From assembly GCA_026983775.1 (NCBI GenBank), contig JALSTK010000155.1, forward strand, positions 1-34,719: a stretch of 34,719 nucleotides of DNA, read 5' to 3'. Shown piece after piece: positions 10,284-34,026 of the stretch; the stretch's first letter is position 1, and the number at the start of each line of letters is the position of its first letter. Below the pieces are notes generated by a model, which worked only from the letters and a program-made list of their open reading frames with translations, made no database searches and had not been told where the DNA came from. The stretch is from Calditrichia bacterium. GTDB lineage: Bacteria; Calditrichota; Calditrichia; Calditrichales; Calditrichaceae. A program made the translations under genes and the position numbers.

Positions 10284-10673
10284 CTAATGCTTTATGTATA
10301 AACTTCTGAGTGTGGTCCAGCGATCGATATAATGCCGCAGATTCTTAATTTTAATCGGTTCTTGTAAAAATTCGGTCAGGTTGTCAAACATATAGGCCGG
10401 TTTATCTTTCATTTCCGAATAGAGCTCGGTGCCGATAAATATGACGGGTATCTTACTGGTTACCGGATCATCGCGCAACTTGCTGAGCATATCCGTTGCT
10501 GATTTTTTTGGAAAAAGCTCGTTAATGACAATGACAGACGGCTTTTGATGATAGGCCTGGCGAAACAGATCACTTTGACTGTTAACCGTAATGAGCTTGT
10601 AATTATAGACTCCTAAAATATCTTGGATGAGTTTCGCTCGATATGGGTCTTGTTCACAAATAAAAATTTTCAT
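10284..10673 (-). CDS. Stand-alone receiver domain without phospho-acceptor Asp (pseudo-receiver)
   Basis: The protein has 129 residues and the size and pattern of a CheY-like receiver: IFICEQD at the start, PSVIVINELFP for strand 3, IPVIFIGT for strand 4 and FLQEPIKIKNL for the last strand and turn. The residue aligned with the phosphorylated Asp is Asn51 (VIVINELFP in place of LLLLD). The conserved Lys of the KP pair is Glu105 (QEP). The Ser/Thr after strand 4 is kept (Thr82). Phosphotransfer therefore seems impossible, and a protein-interaction role or a different input is more likely. A strong AAAGGAG lies 6 bases before the ATG. It is the second gene of the sigma-54-like unit, 18 bases after the 71-residue protein, and the kinase and regulator genes lie just upstream on the same strand. 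Confidence 0.72.
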   Translation of the reverse strand: MKIFICEQDPYRAKLIQDILGVYNYKLITVNSQSDLFRQAYHQKPSVIVINELFPKKSATDMLSKLRDDPVTSKIPVIFIGTELYSEMKDKPAYMFDNLTEFLQEPIKIKNLRHYIDRWTTLRSLYIKH

Positions 10674-10691: not shown

Positions 10692-10907
10692 TCAATTAAC
10701 AATGGGATTATCTGTCAAAATACGGGCCTGAATGGCGGAAGACAGAATATTCGGTAATTCATTTACCAATTCGTCCATGCTATTACGGTAAACGGTAAGG
10801 ACATCGTTTTCGGAAAAGGCCAGCCTAATACTGTAATATCTACGACCTTGTTCATCGTCCAGCGAAGAGATTTCCAGATTACCATCCAGTATATTTTGTA
10901 GAGACAT
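10692..10907 (-). CDS. Small 71-residue protein of unknown function, first gene of the sigma-54-like unit
   Basis: I do not recognise the family. The protein is soluble-looking and acidic: ISSLDDEQGRRYYSIRLAF suggests two beta strands, and the second half (SMDELVNELPNILSSAIQ) a helix. Two adjacent ATG codons exist (10910 and 10907). The AAGGAGG site at 10913-10919 is 6 bases from the second and only 3 from the first, so 10907 is preferred. A longer in-frame ATG at 10979 would lie upstream of the -24/-12 element and is unlikely. The gene is followed by the pseudo-receiver gene after 18 bases. Its position straight behind a sigma-54-type regulator gene suggests it is a target of that regulator. 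Confidence 0.6.
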   Translation of the reverse strand: MSLQNILDGNLEISSLDDEQGRRYYSIRLAFSENDVLTVYRNSMDELVNELPNILSSAIQARILTDNPIVN

Positions 10908-10932
10908 CATTGCCCTCCTTCTTGGGTTTACG

Positions 10933-10948
10933 GTAGATATTACAACTG
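10933..10948 (-). promoter_or_regulatory. Third copy of the TTGTA-N5-TAC motif over the -12 element
   Basis: On the minus strand CAGTTGTAATATCTAC matches copy 1 (CAGTTGTATATTCTAC) at 13 of 16 positions. It covers the -12 region of the sigma-54-like promoter. If the same regulator binds here it could block the polymerase, giving a built-in limit on expression. It could also mean the whole set is recognised by some other factor. Confidence 0.4.
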
Positions 10949-10956
10949 TCATGCCA
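10942..10956 (-). promoter_or_regulatory. Sigma-54-type -24/-12 promoter candidate
   Basis: Read on the minus strand the sequence is TTGGCATGACAGTTGTA. Compared with TGGCAC-N5-TTGC it matches TGGCAT-N5-TTGT, with the GG and GT doublets separated by exactly 10 bases. Transcription would begin near 10930, leaving a leader of about 22 bases with a strong AAGGAGG. The -12 element has T in place of C. A sigma-54 activator gene ends only about 140 bases upstream, which raises the likelihood. The TTGT also belongs to a TTGTA-N5-TAC motif, so the match is not fully independent. Confidence 0.6.
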
Positions 10957-11045
10957 ATACATAACTCTTTAATAGACAATGCGTTAGGTGAATTTTTGAC
11001 TTAAGTCCTTATAAATCACGAGATAAGCTAAGAAACGGGAAAAAC

Positions 11046-11063
11046 GGAATGTAGAATATACAA
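11046..11063 (-). promoter_or_regulatory. Enhancer-like site, copy 1 (TTGTA-N5-TACAT)
   Basis: On the minus strand this reads TTGTATATTCTACATTCC. It is identical at 15 of 18 positions to the copy at 11078-11095, in the same orientation, offset by 32 bases (about three helical turns). It is centred about 125 bases upstream of the predicted sigma-54 start, where NtrC-family activators normally bind. Confidence 0.55.
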
Positions 11064-11077
11064 CTGAGGGGTTGAAA

Positions 11078-11095
11078 GGATTGTAAAAAATACAA
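11078..11095 (-). promoter_or_regulatory. Enhancer-like site, copy 2 (TTGTA-N5-TACAA, perfect palindrome)
   Basis: On the minus strand this reads TTGTATTTTTTACAATCC; the arms TTGTA and TACAA are perfectly inverted around five T. It begins right after the stop codon of the sigma-54 regulator gene. With copy 1 it forms a phased direct-repeat pair, the usual layout for two activator dimers. Confidence 0.55.
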
Positions 11096-12436
11096 TTATT
11101 CTTTAAGACGATTCACAAGGGTACGGTAGTTGATGTTTAAAAACTCGCAGGCCTCCTTCTTGCTCTTACCGCTGTGTTCGTAGACCAGATTTACATATAA
11201 ACGGATCATTTCATCCAGGGTTAGTCGATTGAAAAGGGCGTTTTGCAGGAATAGATTTTCCTCTTCCTGTAATTCGTGGGGAATGTCTTTCAGGGTGAGG
11301 GTCTGGTGGTTTAAAACCAGCATGCGGATCAGTGTATTTTCTAACTGGCGGATATTTCCTTTCCATTCCAGTTTTGATAAATAGGAAACAAGAGCCGGGT
11401 CGAATCTGGGCACCGGGAGATCGTGTTCCCGGCAATAACGCGTGGTAAAGTAATCGATCAGAGCCGGTATATCGTCCGGGCGCTCCCTTAAGGGCGGAAT
11501 GTGAATCGGAATTACGTTCAACCGATAGTAGAGGTCTTCGCGAAATTTGTGAGTTTCCACTTCTTTGGTTAAGGTACGGTTAGTGGCTGTGATCAGTCTG
11601 AAATCGGCCTTTAGCTCTTTAGTGCCGCCCAGGCGGTAAAATGTTTTATCCTGAAGAACACGCAATAATTTTGCCTGAATAGAGAGAGGGAGTTCGCCGA
11701 TTTCATCCAGGAAAAGGGTGCCGCCCTTAACCAGTTCAAACTGGCCCTTCTTGGTTTCATGGGCACCGGTATAAGCGCCTTTTTCATGACCGAACAATTC
11801 ATTTTCGAGTAAGTTTTCCGGCAGGGCTGCGGCATTAATGGCAATAAAAGGTTTTGCGGATAGTTGGCTGCGTCTGTGGATGTGACGGGCGATGATTTCT
11901 TTTCCCACCCCGGACTCGCCGGTGAGTAGAACGGGCTCGGATGTATTACGAATTTGTTCGACCAGACGTAAGATATTCTGCATCTGTTTGCTGACTGCAA
12001 TGATCCCTTCAAAAGAAAGAGTTTCCGTTAATTTTTTACGAAGCGCCAAATTCTCCCGTTCCAGGGTTTGCATGCGCAGGGCGCGTTTGACGGACAAAGG
12101 TAGTTCTTCTTTAATATTTTCACTTTTAAAGAAGTAAGACGAGGCCCCTCTTTTTTGTGCTTCCAAGGCATTCTGATGATCCTGGGAGGATGTGATTACG
12201 ATAACCTTGACATCGGTTCCTTTGGATATGATAAAATCGAGTACCGATAATCCCTGTTCTATTTTGGGAAGGCCCAGGTCCAGCAAAACGATATCGGGAA
12301 GAAAGCGAATAAAGAGTTTTTGGGCCTGTTCCGTGTCTGTGGCAAATTCAAACATATAGTCCCTGCCCAGCCACTTCCGGAAGCTTTGCTGCCAAACCGT
12401 ATTGTCTTCTACAATTAATATTTTGGATTTACTCAT
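11096..12436 (-). CDS. Sigma-54-dependent response regulator (NtrC family)
   Basis: The protein has 446 residues in three parts. The receiver domain (about 5-120) keeps the acid pair E10/D11, phospho-acceptor D53 (PDIVLLDLGLP), T82 and K104. The AAA+ domain (about 140-370) has Walker A GESGVGKE (173-180), the sigma-54 contact loop GAYTGA (220-225) and Walker B LFLDEIGELP. The C-terminal Fis-type helix-turn-helix (about 410-446) includes GKSKKEACEFLNINYRTLVNRL. All residues needed for phosphorylation, ATP hydrolysis and sigma-54 contact are seen. The gene overlaps the histidine-kinase gene by 8 bases, so the two are a cognate pair. The likely target is the sigma-54-like promoter just downstream. 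The overall layout resembles regulators of exopolysaccharide or stress systems, but no specific subfamily can be assigned here. Confidence 0.92.
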   Translation of the reverse strand: MSKSKILIVEDNTVWQQSFRKWLGRDYMFEFATDTEQAQKLFIRFLPDIVLLDLGLPKIEQGLSVLDFIISKGTDVKVIVITSSQDHQNALEAQKRGASSYFFKSENIKEELPLSVKRALRMQTLERENLALRKKLTETLSFEGIIAVSKQMQNILRLVEQIRNTSEPVLLTGESGVGKEIIARHIHRRSQLSAKPFIAINAAALPENLLENELFGHEKGAYTGAHETKKGQFELVKGGTLFLDEIGELPLSIQAKLLRVLQDKTFYRLGGTKELKADFRLITATNRTLTKEVETHKFREDLYYRLNVIPIHIPPLRERPDDIPALIDYFTTRYCREHDLPVPRFDPALVSYLSKLEWKGNIRQLENTLIRMLVLNHQTLTLKDIPHELQEEENLFLQNALFNRLTLDEMIRLYVNLVYEHSGKSKKEACEFLNINYRTLVNRLKE

Positions 12437-13481
12437 CTTTGCCTGTATCGTTTAGAGGGAGATAAAGGGTCACTTCGGTTCCTTTTTTAAAAACAGAATT
12501 GATAAGAAGCTGACCGTGATGGGATTCAATAATTTTTTTTGCTATGGATAAGCCAAGCCCTGTATATCCCTCGTATTTTCGGGTTGTGAAAAAAGGTTCT
12601 GTAACCCGCTTTAGAAAATCCTTGTGAATACCGGATCCCCCGTCACGAATGACGATTCGCAACCAGTCAAACGGTAGCAAAGGAGAAACCGGCGGGATCG
12701 TATCGATTTTGATAGATATTTTGGTATAATCGTTACTGACAGCCATCAGACTATTGGTGATAATCTCATTAAATGCCCGGGATAACAATTCGGCGTCTCC
12801 AATTATATCGGAAACATTTGCAGAAATCTGAAGTGTAAAGTTTTCCGCCTTTAAATGTATCATTTGTAACGAATCCGAAATAAATGTATCGACAGGCATC
12901 CGAATGGGAAGGAGCTCTAGAGGCCGGATTAAAAACAGCAGACGGTTATTCACCTTACGCTGATAAGAACGGCGAATGTCCAGTTCATCGTTGCGGCAGG
13001 CTTTGGGAATCATATCCACCAGAGAGTGGCTGTCATGGAGAAGCTGAGAGATCAGGTTGGCCCAGGTCAAGTCGTTATCTTCAAGAGCCTTATATCGGAT
13101 TTGCCTTAACATGGACTGAAGAGTTTGCCAGGTTGCCAAAAGATCAATGACTACCCGGGACAAATCTTCTTTAAAGACAAAAATATAATTTACTTTAAAA
13201 GGCGGAACTTGCCCCGGAATATAATTGATATAATCGTTTGTTTTTATGAATGGATTTTTCGGATCAGGATAATTGGCCTGAGTGAAAGAATCTGCCCATT
13301 TGTGCGCATCGAATTCAGCATCGGAGAACAGGATGGGAATGAATGGCCGGGGATGATACAGATGTTTCATCACCGCCAGGATCGGACTATCGGTTTCTTC
13401 TTTCAAAAAAAGATATGTCTTTTTGGCCAAATCATCTGTGCTGAGAGCTTCTTTTGCCTGTTGTAAATAGGATTCAATCAT
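12429..13481 (-). CDS. Soluble sensor histidine kinase
   Basis: The protein has 350 residues and no membrane segment or signal peptide, so it senses a cytoplasmic input. The first ~120 residues do not match a sensor fold I know. The probable phospho-acceptor is His149 (LISQLLHDSHSLVD), although the H-box is unusual and His152 is nearby. The ATPase domain follows with an N-box (FNEIITNSLMAVS, about 237-249), G1 (RDGGSGI, about 279-285), F-box (EPFFTT) and G2 (GYTGLGLSIAKKI). It overlaps mazG by 4 bases (ATGA) upstream and the response regulator by 8 bases downstream; this tight coupling implies matched expression. The direct link to mazG raises the idea that the kinase responds to nucleotide state, but this is speculation. 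Confidence 0.88.
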   Translation of the reverse strand: MIESYLQQAKEALSTDDLAKKTYLFLKEETDSPILAVMKHLYHPRPFIPILFSDAEFDAHKWADSFTQANYPDPKNPFIKTNDYINYIPGQVPPFKVNYIFVFKEDLSRVVIDLLATWQTLQSMLRQIRYKALEDNDLTWANLISQLLHDSHSLVDMIPKACRNDELDIRRSYQRKVNNRLLFLIRPLELLPIRMPVDTFISDSLQMIHLKAENFTLQISANVSDIIGDAELLSRAFNEIITNSLMAVSNDYTKISIKIDTIPPVSPLLPFDWLRIVIRDGGSGIHKDFLKRVTEPFFTTRKYEGYTGLGLSIAKKIIESHHGQLLINSVFKKGTEVTLYLPLNDTGKDE

Positions 13482-22964: not shown

Positions 22965-23909
22965 TTAATTGTGAATCTCGACAGAAACCAGTTCCCGGTT
23001 ATCCAGGTTGCGCATCTTATCGGGAATATGGTCCAGGATCTCCTCTTTCAAACGGTCTATTAAACGTTTTTTAACGAAGCTGCGACTGGTTACCAAACTC
23101 ACTTGACGTACAGGTGTGGAGAAGCGAAAAGGTCGCAAATAAGTTTGATTCCTTTTGGGAAGATTGCGAATGGCCAGTTCCGGAATAAGCGTTAAACCGG
23201 CACGGGATTCCACGATTTTTTTCAGCGATTCAATAGACCCGCTTTGATAGGATAAAGATGAAGAATCCTGTGATGTATCGGCGTGACAGATGTTGATGAC
23301 CTGATTTCGGAAACAATTACCCTCATCCAAAAGCCAGACATTCTCCACGGTAAGATCGGCAAAATCTAGCGCTTCTTTGGAAAAAAGAGGGTGCTCCGGT
23401 GAGATATACGTATAAAATTCTTCATAAAATAACGGCATAATGTGGATGGATTTATCGGGCCAGGGGGTCACAAATATTCCGGCATCCAGATCATTGCTTT
23501 TTAGTTGTTCGATAATTTGTTCCGTTAATTTTTCAGTAATGCTGACATGGACTTTAGGGTGTTTTTTTAAGAAAGTGTTAATAAAAAGAGGAACCAGATA
23601 AGGAGCAATGGTAGGAATAATACCGAGGCGCAGCTCGCCGCTAATATCTTTTTGAAAACTGCGTACCAGTTCCGGAATTTTTTCACTTTCCTGTAAGACA
23701 TATTTGGCCTGCTCTATGATCTGCTCACCGATCTCGGTGGGTATGAGCGGTTTTTTGGAGCGGTCGAAGATTTTTACTCCCAATTCGTCTTCCAAATGCT
23801 GTACCTGGATGGTTAAGGCCGGCTGGGTAATGAAACATTTCCGGGCCGCTTTTAGAAAATTCCGTTCCGTATCCAGAGCAACGATGTATTTTAATTGCGA
23901 TAGAGTCAT
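22965..23909 (-). CDS. oxyR: OxyR-type LysR regulator with both redox cysteines
   Basis: The protein has 314 residues when started at ATG 23909 (TLSQLKYIVALDTERNFLKA). An upstream ATG would add 11 unrelated hydrophobic residues. The N-terminal winged helix-turn-helix spans about 1-60. The sensor domain has LLDEGNCFRNQVINICHA with Cys199 and Cys208 at the same numbers and spacing as the peroxide-sensing pair of E. coli OxyR, which also supports the chosen start. On oxidation these form a disulfide and activate antioxidant genes. It is divergent from dps and catalase, the classic targets. No Shine-Dalgarno site precedes the ATG. Recognition is firm. Confidence 0.93.
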   Translation of the reverse strand: MTLSQLKYIVALDTERNFLKAARKCFITQPALTIQVQHLEDELGVKIFDRSKKPLIPTEIGEQIIEQAKYVLQESEKIPELVRSFQKDISGELRLGIIPTIAPYLVPLFINTFLKKHPKVHVSITEKLTEQIIEQLKSNDLDAGIFVTPWPDKSIHIMPLFYEEFYTYISPEHPLFSKEALDFADLTVENVWLLDEGNCFRNQVINICHADTSQDSSSLSYQSGSIESLKKIVESRAGLTLIPELAIRNLPKRNQTYLRPFRFSTPVRQVSLVTSRSFVKKRLIDRLKEEILDHIPDKMRNLDNRELVSVEIHN

Positions 23910-23914
23910 AAAAA

Positions 23915-23942
23915 ATATTAATGGTAATATATTTATTATCAA
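23915..23942 (-). promoter_or_regulatory. oxyR promoter with palindrome over the -10; possibly leaderless
   Basis: On the minus strand TTGATA (23937-23942), a 16-base spacer and TAATAT (23915-23920) resemble a housekeeping promoter. The oxyR ATG begins only 5 bases after the -10, so the transcript would start at or very near the start codon. The -10 lies in the palindrome ATATTA-N4-TAATAT (23915-23930), a possible OxyR self-repression site. The region is very AT-rich, so both calls carry chance risk. Confidence 0.45.
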
Positions 23943-23943
23943 T

Positions 23944-23972
23944 TTGAATTATGAAATTACGCTATGTATGTT
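23944..23972 (+). promoter_or_regulatory. dps promoter candidate
   Basis: TTGAAT (23944-23949), a 17-base spacer and TATGTT (23967-23972) match a housekeeping promoter. A start near 23979 gives a leader of about 36 bases with AAAGGAG ahead of the dps ATG at 24015. The AT-rich palindrome and oxyR promoter lie directly upstream of the -35, where OxyR-type activators bind. Confidence 0.45.
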
Positions 23973-24014
23973 GTAAATGCAAAAAATAATATAAACAAAA
24001 AAGGAGAAATCAAA

Positions 24015-24491
24015 ATGGAACAATTCAATGTCTTTGGTTTGCCCAAAAAGTACACCGATGAAATGGCGGACAAATTAAATCAATTACTGAGCGATTTTCA
24101 AATCTATTACCAAAATTTAAGAGGCATGCACTGGAATATAAAAGGGGCTCATTTTCTGGTTCTGCATGTCAAGTTGGAGGAATTGTATAATGTGGCGGCT
24201 GAAAATGTGGATGAAATTGCCGAGCGGATTTTAATATTGGAGAATCAGCCTTTGCATACTCTGCAGGATTATGTTCAACAAAGCAGCTTACCCGTAGCCA
24301 GGGATGTACGGGATCCGCAGCAGGCCATAAACTTTGTAATCGGTAATCTGAAGGCTTTAATTGATCTGGAACGTAAGCTCATTAGTGTGGCTGAGGCATA
24401 TAATGATCACGGCACCATTACGATCCTTAGTGATTATATTTCCAGACAGGAAAAAGAAGTGTGGATGCTGCGTTCTTCCCTGCAAGAATGA
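24015..24491 (+). CDS. dps: Dps-family ferritin-like DNA-protecting protein
   Basis: The protein has 158 residues starting at ATG 24015, preceded by AAAGGAGAAATCAAA; an in-frame ATG 17 codons upstream is rejected because it lies before the ribosome site. The Dps ferroxidase signature is seen: His39 in GMHWNIKG, His51 in LHVKLEELY, Asp66 and Glu70 in NVDEIAERI. These residues bind iron between two subunits of the 12-mer, which oxidises Fe(II) with peroxide and stores it. The N-terminus is short and lacks a Lys-rich tail, so direct DNA binding is doubtful. It is divergent from oxyR and 99 bases ahead of the catalase gene on the same strand. Confidence 0.92.
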   Translation: MEQFNVFGLPKKYTDEMADKLNQLLSDFQIYYQNLRGMHWNIKGAHFLVLHVKLEELYNVAAENVDEIAERILILENQPLHTLQDYVQQSSLPVARDVRDPQQAINFVIGNLKALIDLERKLISVAEAYNDHGTITILSDYISRQEKEVWMLRSSLQE

Positions 24492-24518
24492 AGGCGTTTA
24501 TGTAAGGATCAACTAATT

Positions 24519-24559
24519 CACCGTTTTGTGCAGAAAGTCAGTCGGTGTTTTTTGCACAA
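24519..24559 (+). promoter_or_regulatory. Two overlapping, mutually exclusive inverted repeats between dps and catalase
   Basis: CACCG (24519-24523) pairs with CGGTG (24543-24547) and is followed by six T (24548-24553), a terminator-like arrangement with a short stem. TTGTGCA (24526-24532) pairs with TGCACAA (24553-24559), using the loop of the first stem and the last T of its tail. The two folds cannot coexist. This may be a weak terminator with a competing fold, or coincidence. Confidence 0.35.
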
Positions 24560-24590
24560 CTCAAATTTTAATTAAGTCAAGGAGAAAGAA

Positions 24591-26033
24591 ATGAGTAAAA
24601 AGAAAACCTTAACCGGTTCGGCGGGTATTCCGATCAGTGATAATCAGAATTCACTTACCGCCGGAGAGCGGGGGCCAACTCTGTTACAGGATCATCAATT
24701 GCTTAACAAGCTGGCTCATTTTCACAGAGAGCGTATCCCGGAGCGGGTGGTACATGCCAAAGCAGCCGGAGCCTATGGAACCTTCACAGTTACCAAGGAT
24801 ATCACATCCTATACCAAAGCCAGGCTTTTTTCGGAAATCGGTAAAAAAACCGAAGTCTTCGGACGGTTTTCCACGGTTGCCGGTGAAAAAGGCTCGGCCG
24901 ATACGGTACGGGATGTTCGTGGTTTTGCTCTTAAATTTTATACGGAAGAAGGAAACTGGGATCTGGTTGGCAATAATACACCGGTGTTCTTCATAAGGGA
25001 TGCTATGAAATTTCCGGATTTTATTCATACCCAGAAACGGGTGGCGCAAAGCAATCTGCGTTCGGAGACAATGTGGTGGGATTTTTGGTCGTTAGTACCC
25101 GAATCTTTGCATCAGGTAACTATTTTGTTTTCGGATCGTGGCATTCCTCAGGGAATTCCCTACATGAATGGCTACGGTAGCCACACCTTTAGCTTTATCA
25201 ACAGCAACAACGAGCGTTTCTGGGTGAAATTTCATTTTAAGACCCGCCAGGGGATTCAAAATATGGAGCCGGAAGAAGCGGATCGTCTTGCCGGTAAGGA
25301 TGCGGATTATCATACGCGGATGTTATTCGAGGCTATTGAGAACAGGGAATATCCGCAGTGGACGCTTTATGTGCAGATCATGCCCGAAACAGAGGCGGAA
25401 AACTACCGCTGGAATCCCTTTGACCTGACCAAGGTCTGGTCTCATCAAGACTACCCCCTGATTGAGGTAGGGATACTGGAGCTAAATCGTAATCCGCAGA
25501 ACTATTTTGCCGAGGTGGAACAATCGGCTTTTTCACCGGCCAATGTCGTACCGGGGATTTCTTTTTCACCGGATAAAATGCTACAAGCCCGGATTTTTGC
25601 CTATGCAGATGCACATCGTTACCGGCTGGGAGTCAATCACGAACAAATCCCGGTAAACAAGCCCAGGGCGGCTAAAGTGAACAATTACCAGCGCGACGGA
25701 TACATGGTAACAGGAGATAACGGCGGTGCTGCCGTGAATTACGAGCCCAATAGTTTTGGCGGACCGGTAGAGGATGCTGCATATAAAGAGCCACCTCTAA
25801 AGATATGGGGTGATGCCGATCGCTACGATCAAAAGCGCGGTGTAGATGATGACTATGTGCAACCCGGAGCATTGTTTCGGCTCCTTTCTGCTGAAGAACA
25901 GACGCGTCTGATTAATAATATTGTCGAGAGTTTAAAGAAAGTACCCAAAGATATTCAGCAACGGATGGTCGGTCATTTCCTGCGTGCGGATAAATCCTAT
26001 GGAGAAGGGGTGGCCAAAGGATTAGGATTGTAA
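24591..26033 (+). CDS. katA: Monofunctional haem catalase
   Basis: The protein has 480 residues, the small-subunit (clade 3) size. The distal haem pocket is complete: His55 in [12 protein letters not shown], Ser in [12 protein letters not shown] and Asn128 in [11 protein letters not shown]. The proximal Tyr lies in [14 protein letters not shown]. Other family blocks are [22 protein letters not shown] and PVNKPR. The enzyme converts hydrogen peroxide to water and oxygen in the cytosol. AAGGAG lies upstream of the ATG. It follows dps by 99 bases and may share its transcript. OxyR control is expected from the divergent oxyR gene. Nothing is missing. Confidence 0.95.
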
Positions 26034-34011: not shown

Positions 34012-34026
34012 TTGTAATTCGTACAT
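34012..34026 (+). promoter_or_regulatory. Isolated TTGTA-N5-TACAT motif between divergent genes
   Basis: TTGTA-ATTCG-TACAT has the same arm sequence and spacing as the enhancer-like sites at 11046-11095. It lies in the 135-base gap between the glycosyltransferase and MATE genes. No -24/-12 element was found nearby, so it may be a distant site for the same regulator or chance. Confidence 0.3.

Follow-up and report, generated by a model that had tools for sequence, protein, structure and literature searches.

A conserved pair of palindromes as the probable enhancer of a local, essentially one-operon sigma-54 switch in Calditrichia

Activators of the NtrC family (group I bEBP) combine a receiver, an AAA+ domain and a Fis-type HTH and work from paired palindromes 100–160 bp upstream of a −24/−12 promoter, the classical NtrC site being TGCACY-N5-RGTGCA. 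Enhancer sites of this family lie about 100–150 bp upstream and act by looping (PMC7057263). LuxO of Vibrio has few targets and recognizes 13-bp sites with TTGCA/TGCAA half-sites (TTGCA-N3-TGCAA). Its sites at the qrr genes were mapped by ChIP, for example ttgcaaaatgcaa (PMC10328515), and a pair of sites precedes the promoter by about 100 bp (PMC11407668). A further relative is PrsK/PrsR (PEP-CTERM exosortase). Upstream of PEP-CTERM genes, a sigma-54 site is preceded at about 63 nt by a motif that has TTTACA at its end and is repeated in some cases only (PMC1569441). Conserved upstream sites beside orthologous activators were also described for the EBP regulons of Clostridiales and Desulfovibrio, where a common motif is TGT-N9..12-ACA (PMC6615313, PMC4641369).

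The locus described here is read on the minus strand of a 34,719-nucleotide stretch of DNA from a Calditrichia bacterium (GenBank assembly GCA_026983775.1, contig JALSTK010000155.1), the whole of which is called the window. Pfam searches of its regulator (11096–12436, minus strand) showed a receiver (PF00072, E = 6e-15), a sigma-54 AAA+ domain (PF00158, E = 2e-69) and a Fis-type HTH, the last as a weak HTH_8 match (E = 0.002, 18.4 bits, cut-off 22), which is the domain set of an NtrC-type activator. Paired palindromes and a −24/−12 promoter are likewise shared with the NtrC family, whereas the motif here is TTGYA-N5-TRCAA and the regulon appears to be one local operon. The resemblance to LuxO lies in the half-sites and the small number of targets; in contrast, the sites here are 15 bp long (N5 in 72 sites) with Y/R at the fourth position, the target genes encode proteins, and the regulator scores 302.2 bits with the LuxO model NF041946, below its cut-off of 800. 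The best NCBIfam match of the regulator is PrsR (TIGR02915) with 381.7 bits, below the curated cut-off of 502.6, and the kinase scores 43–95 bits with the PrsK-type model, whose cut-off is 300. The Clostridiales and Desulfovibrio regulons belong to different phyla.

The regulator has one clear orthologue per genome in almost all class genomes, with 53–81% identity, the next group of proteins reaching at most 45%. The cognate histidine kinase (12429–13481, minus strand) is a short form without an N-terminal hydrophobic region, and a sequence search of the genome contigs with this kinase returned distant kinases only. The longer kinase of other class families has about 680 aa and a long hydrophobic N-terminal region; by family, the kinase is short in f1, f2 and f4, and the hydrophobic region is present in f3, f5 (most) and f6.

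Two palindromic sites lie between the regulator gene and a sigma-54 promoter. Site 1, the distal one (11081–11095, minus strand), is the perfect palindrome TTGTATTTTTTACAA and begins directly after the regulator stop codon, and site 2, the proximal one (11049–11063, minus strand), is TTGTATATTCTACAT, with one mismatch to the consensus. An earlier note on this DNA had described two 18-base sites (11046–11063 and 11078–11095) that agree at 15 of 18 positions with a 32-bp offset, which was borne out. It had also called them similarly oriented, which is literally so but carries no information because each site is a palindrome. The note placed the sites about 125–160 bases before the predicted start; alignment with relatives puts the conserved start at the ATG of position 10907, with an alternative at 10910, and the sites are then about 140–190 bp upstream. 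In a scan of the window, TTGTA-N5-TAC occurred five times counting both strands, against 0.39 expected, at 11051–11063, at 11081–11095 (on both strands, this site being its own reverse complement), at 10933–10945 and at the distant position 34012.

The DNA behind each regulator orthologue contained two palindromes and then a sigma-54 promoter wherever the sequence reached far enough. The 72 sites from 36 genomes of six families gave as consensus a 15-bp palindrome, TTGYA-N-WWW-N-TRCAA, in which positions 2, 3, 5, 13 and 14 are invariant in 72/72 sites and the three central bases are A or T with two exceptions. The motif predicted earlier, TTGTA-N5-TACAW, had to be widened to TTGYA/TRCAA; in this form site 1 stood at the equivalent place in all 36 genomes with the full region, which answers positively whether the sites are conserved among relatives. 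The offset between the sites is 31 bp in 7 genomes, 32 in 16, 33 in 12 and 34 in 1. Mean pairwise identity within families f1, f2 and f4 was 72–73% for the sites and 66% for the promoter, against 34–39% for the spacers. A search for the pair over 40 class genomes was positive in 34, each of which has it at a single place that is always the regulator locus (the pair of G014 was counted twice, two contigs overlapping there), and a reversed-pattern control over the same genomes gave no pairs. The second site is degenerate in G021 and G023. As for the remaining four genomes, contigs end at the locus in G036, G013 and G022, G036 retaining one site and the promoter before the contig end, and G039 is 62% complete. 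Outside the class, scattered matches were seen in 2 of 20 genomes, and nothing more.

The promoter (10941–10956, minus strand) is the −24/−12 element TGGCATGACAGTTGTA, and a TGGCA-type element with GG/TG spacing is present in 36/36 genomes; rpoN, encoding sigma-54, is found in the window's own genome. Site 2 is 107 bp from the −24 element here and 94–120 bp across the 36 genomes, the distance being 105–107 bp in 19 genomes, 115–116 in 8 and 118–120 in 8, and the single genome with 94 bp has an atypical promoter. Paired sites 80–200 bp upstream, as in NtrC-type enhancers, were found in all 36 genomes. Spacing to the promoter is non-uniform, and since periods of 10–13 bp fit it about equally well, an exact helical phasing of the sites to the promoter is no more than suggested. 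Regulator, pair, sigma-54 promoter, (small gene) and receiver follow one another in this order even in relatives whose pair is 80–450 bp past the regulator stop.

Additional evidence came from genome G004, which carries a clearly diverged, unlinked second copy of the small target gene; here TTGTAATATATACAA stands 106 bp upstream of a separate sigma-54 promoter, TGGCACATCTTTTGCG, implying that the site travels with the target. The contig ends before any second site could be seen. This arrangement is an independent check on the predicted enhancer function. A search for one site and a promoter at 88–108 intervening bases recovered the orthologous loci, the G004 paralogue and a few isolated matches at other places. 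TTGYA-N5-TRCAA occurs perfectly at 27 places in the genome from which the window comes, and only the window site combines an intergenic position with a matching sigma-54 element; the other 26 are almost all inside ORFs, and all of them lack an appropriately spaced sigma-54 element. The genome scan for further targets that the earlier note had proposed thus yielded none in the own genome, TTGTA/TACAW variants included.

The NtrC-type activation layout put forward in that note is strongly supported by the adjacent regulator, the presence of rpoN, the class-wide pair with its −24/−12 element and the spacing at the G004 paralogue. It is very probable, judging from these sequence comparisons, that the pair is the enhancer from which the adjacent regulator activates a sigma-54 two-gene operon. 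For an orphan sigma-54 activator of a little-studied class, this gives a precise class-wide candidate binding motif together with a target.

The alternative that survives best, improbable as it is, is that the enhancers are bound not by the adjacent regulator but by another sigma-54 activator or palindrome-binding regulator. The own genome contains 24 matches to NtrC-type regulators, so that cross-binding by one of these may occur. However, the pair adjoins the regulator gene in all class loci with both on one contig, and the recognition helix of the adjacent regulator, NYRTL, is nearly invariant across the class. The joint absence of regulator and sites from four genomes was considered as proof of binding and dropped because contigs break off right at the locus in three of these and the fourth has a completeness of 62%.

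Self-limiting repression had also been suggested in the earlier note, on the strength of a third TTGTA-N5-TAC copy over the −12 element, which would make three operators. The string does occur at 10933–10945 on the minus strand (within the 15-mer TTGTAATATCTACCG, 10931–10945). However, the TTGTA of this string is identical with the −12 element and as such is required by sigma-54, and TTGTAATATCTACCG violates position 14, which is A in 72/72 real sites. Moreover, none of the other 35 orthologous promoters has the TTGTA-N5-TAC form starting at the −12 TTG, so that the third copy is present in 1/36 genomes. As a repressor site it was rejected on these grounds, and self-repression, which rested on this copy only, was dropped because the copy is non-conserved and misfits the motif. 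Three operators are accordingly a very improbable arrangement; the third copy appears to be the −12 element plus a chance match, without a role, and shows that a promising 'third operator' can arise as a by-product of a −12 element.

It was also considered that the palindromes might be an RNA element or a terminator ending the regulator transcript, since site 1 directly follows the stop codon in the window and the palindromes can form short hairpins of −2.7 and −0.5 kcal/mol. These stems are weak, no terminator-like structure was called at the two sites, and this candidate was rejected. In several relatives, moreover, the pair lies at the distances from the stop codon given above yet 105–120 bp from the promoter, and in G004 the site of the paralogue precedes another promoter that is unlinked, which makes a function in the transcript highly unlikely, more so than a third operator. 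Least credible of all, to the point of being negligible, is that the repeat arose by chance in AT-rich DNA between genes. When the intergenic region was shuffled 300 times (first-order), 4 of the shuffles contained a direct repeat of 18 bases as good as this one, so that the pair is only moderately surprising from within-window statistics and relatives were needed, and its conservation in 36 genomes while the spacers diverged makes it certain that the pair is real.

With the pair read as an enhancer of the adjacent regulator, its target operon comprises two genes. The first (10692–10907, minus strand) encodes a 71-aa class-specific protein, predicted as beta-beta-beta-alpha, that matched no Pfam or NCBIfam family. 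Its structure model (three strands and a helix, pLDDT 82) had no PDB match at E < 0.001. Among the 60 genomes searched the protein is confined to the class, and it is absent or unrecognized in several class families. The second gene (10284–10673, minus strand) encodes a stand-alone degenerate receiver, which is present in every class locus read whose sequence extends to this point and is the constant target of the promoter across the class. The phospho-acceptor Asp position of the receiver holds N in 24, D in 4, S in 1 and H in 1 of 30 sequences, and the conserved Lys position holds E in 29 of 30; in the window protein Asn replaces the Asp and Glu the Lys of a canonical response-regulator receiver. 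Its C-terminal segment, EPxKIKNxRHxxxRW, is almost invariant across the class, and among PDB entries the DivK and PleD receivers are nearest to it in sequence. These results point to a target of two genes that is deeply conserved and as yet unstudied.

The best reading of the locus is a local, essentially one-operon two-component sigma-54 switch of classical architecture. The histidine kinase would phosphorylate the regulator, and the activated regulator is predicted to bind both 15-bp palindromes, on one helix face and separated by three turns, about 125 and 157 bp upstream of where transcription is predicted to begin. DNA looping would then bring about activation of sigma-54 RNA polymerase at 10941–10956, with formation of the open complex, and the promoter would turn on the genes for the 71-aa protein and the degenerate receiver. 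The receiver, no longer phosphorylatable in the usual way, most likely acts by protein contact, and its downstream role, on which we can only speculate, would most likely be contact-based feedback or relay. We tentatively suggest, as a rather doubtful extension, a class-wide module in which the sigma-54 switch acts on essentially one operon and the phosphorylation-dead receiver and its beta3-alpha partner either feed back on the kinase or the regulator or relay the signal by contact to a cell-surface process. The G004 paralogue (L167, G004:C321:4500-6536) is followed by a long reading frame resembling a secreted repeat protein, which hints at a possible link between the regulated process and the cell surface.

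Some features of the surrounding DNA were noted by eye. In more distant families (L132, L133, L134, L137–L141), an OB-fold/nuclease-like gene converges on the receiver gene and is often followed by a YfcE-like phosphodiesterase gene, instead of which the window has a 5′-nucleotidase-like gene. Elsewhere in the window, at 22965–26033, a gene for an OxyR-like LysR-type regulator lies beside Dps-like and catalase genes, and this region is probably an oxidative-stress cluster.
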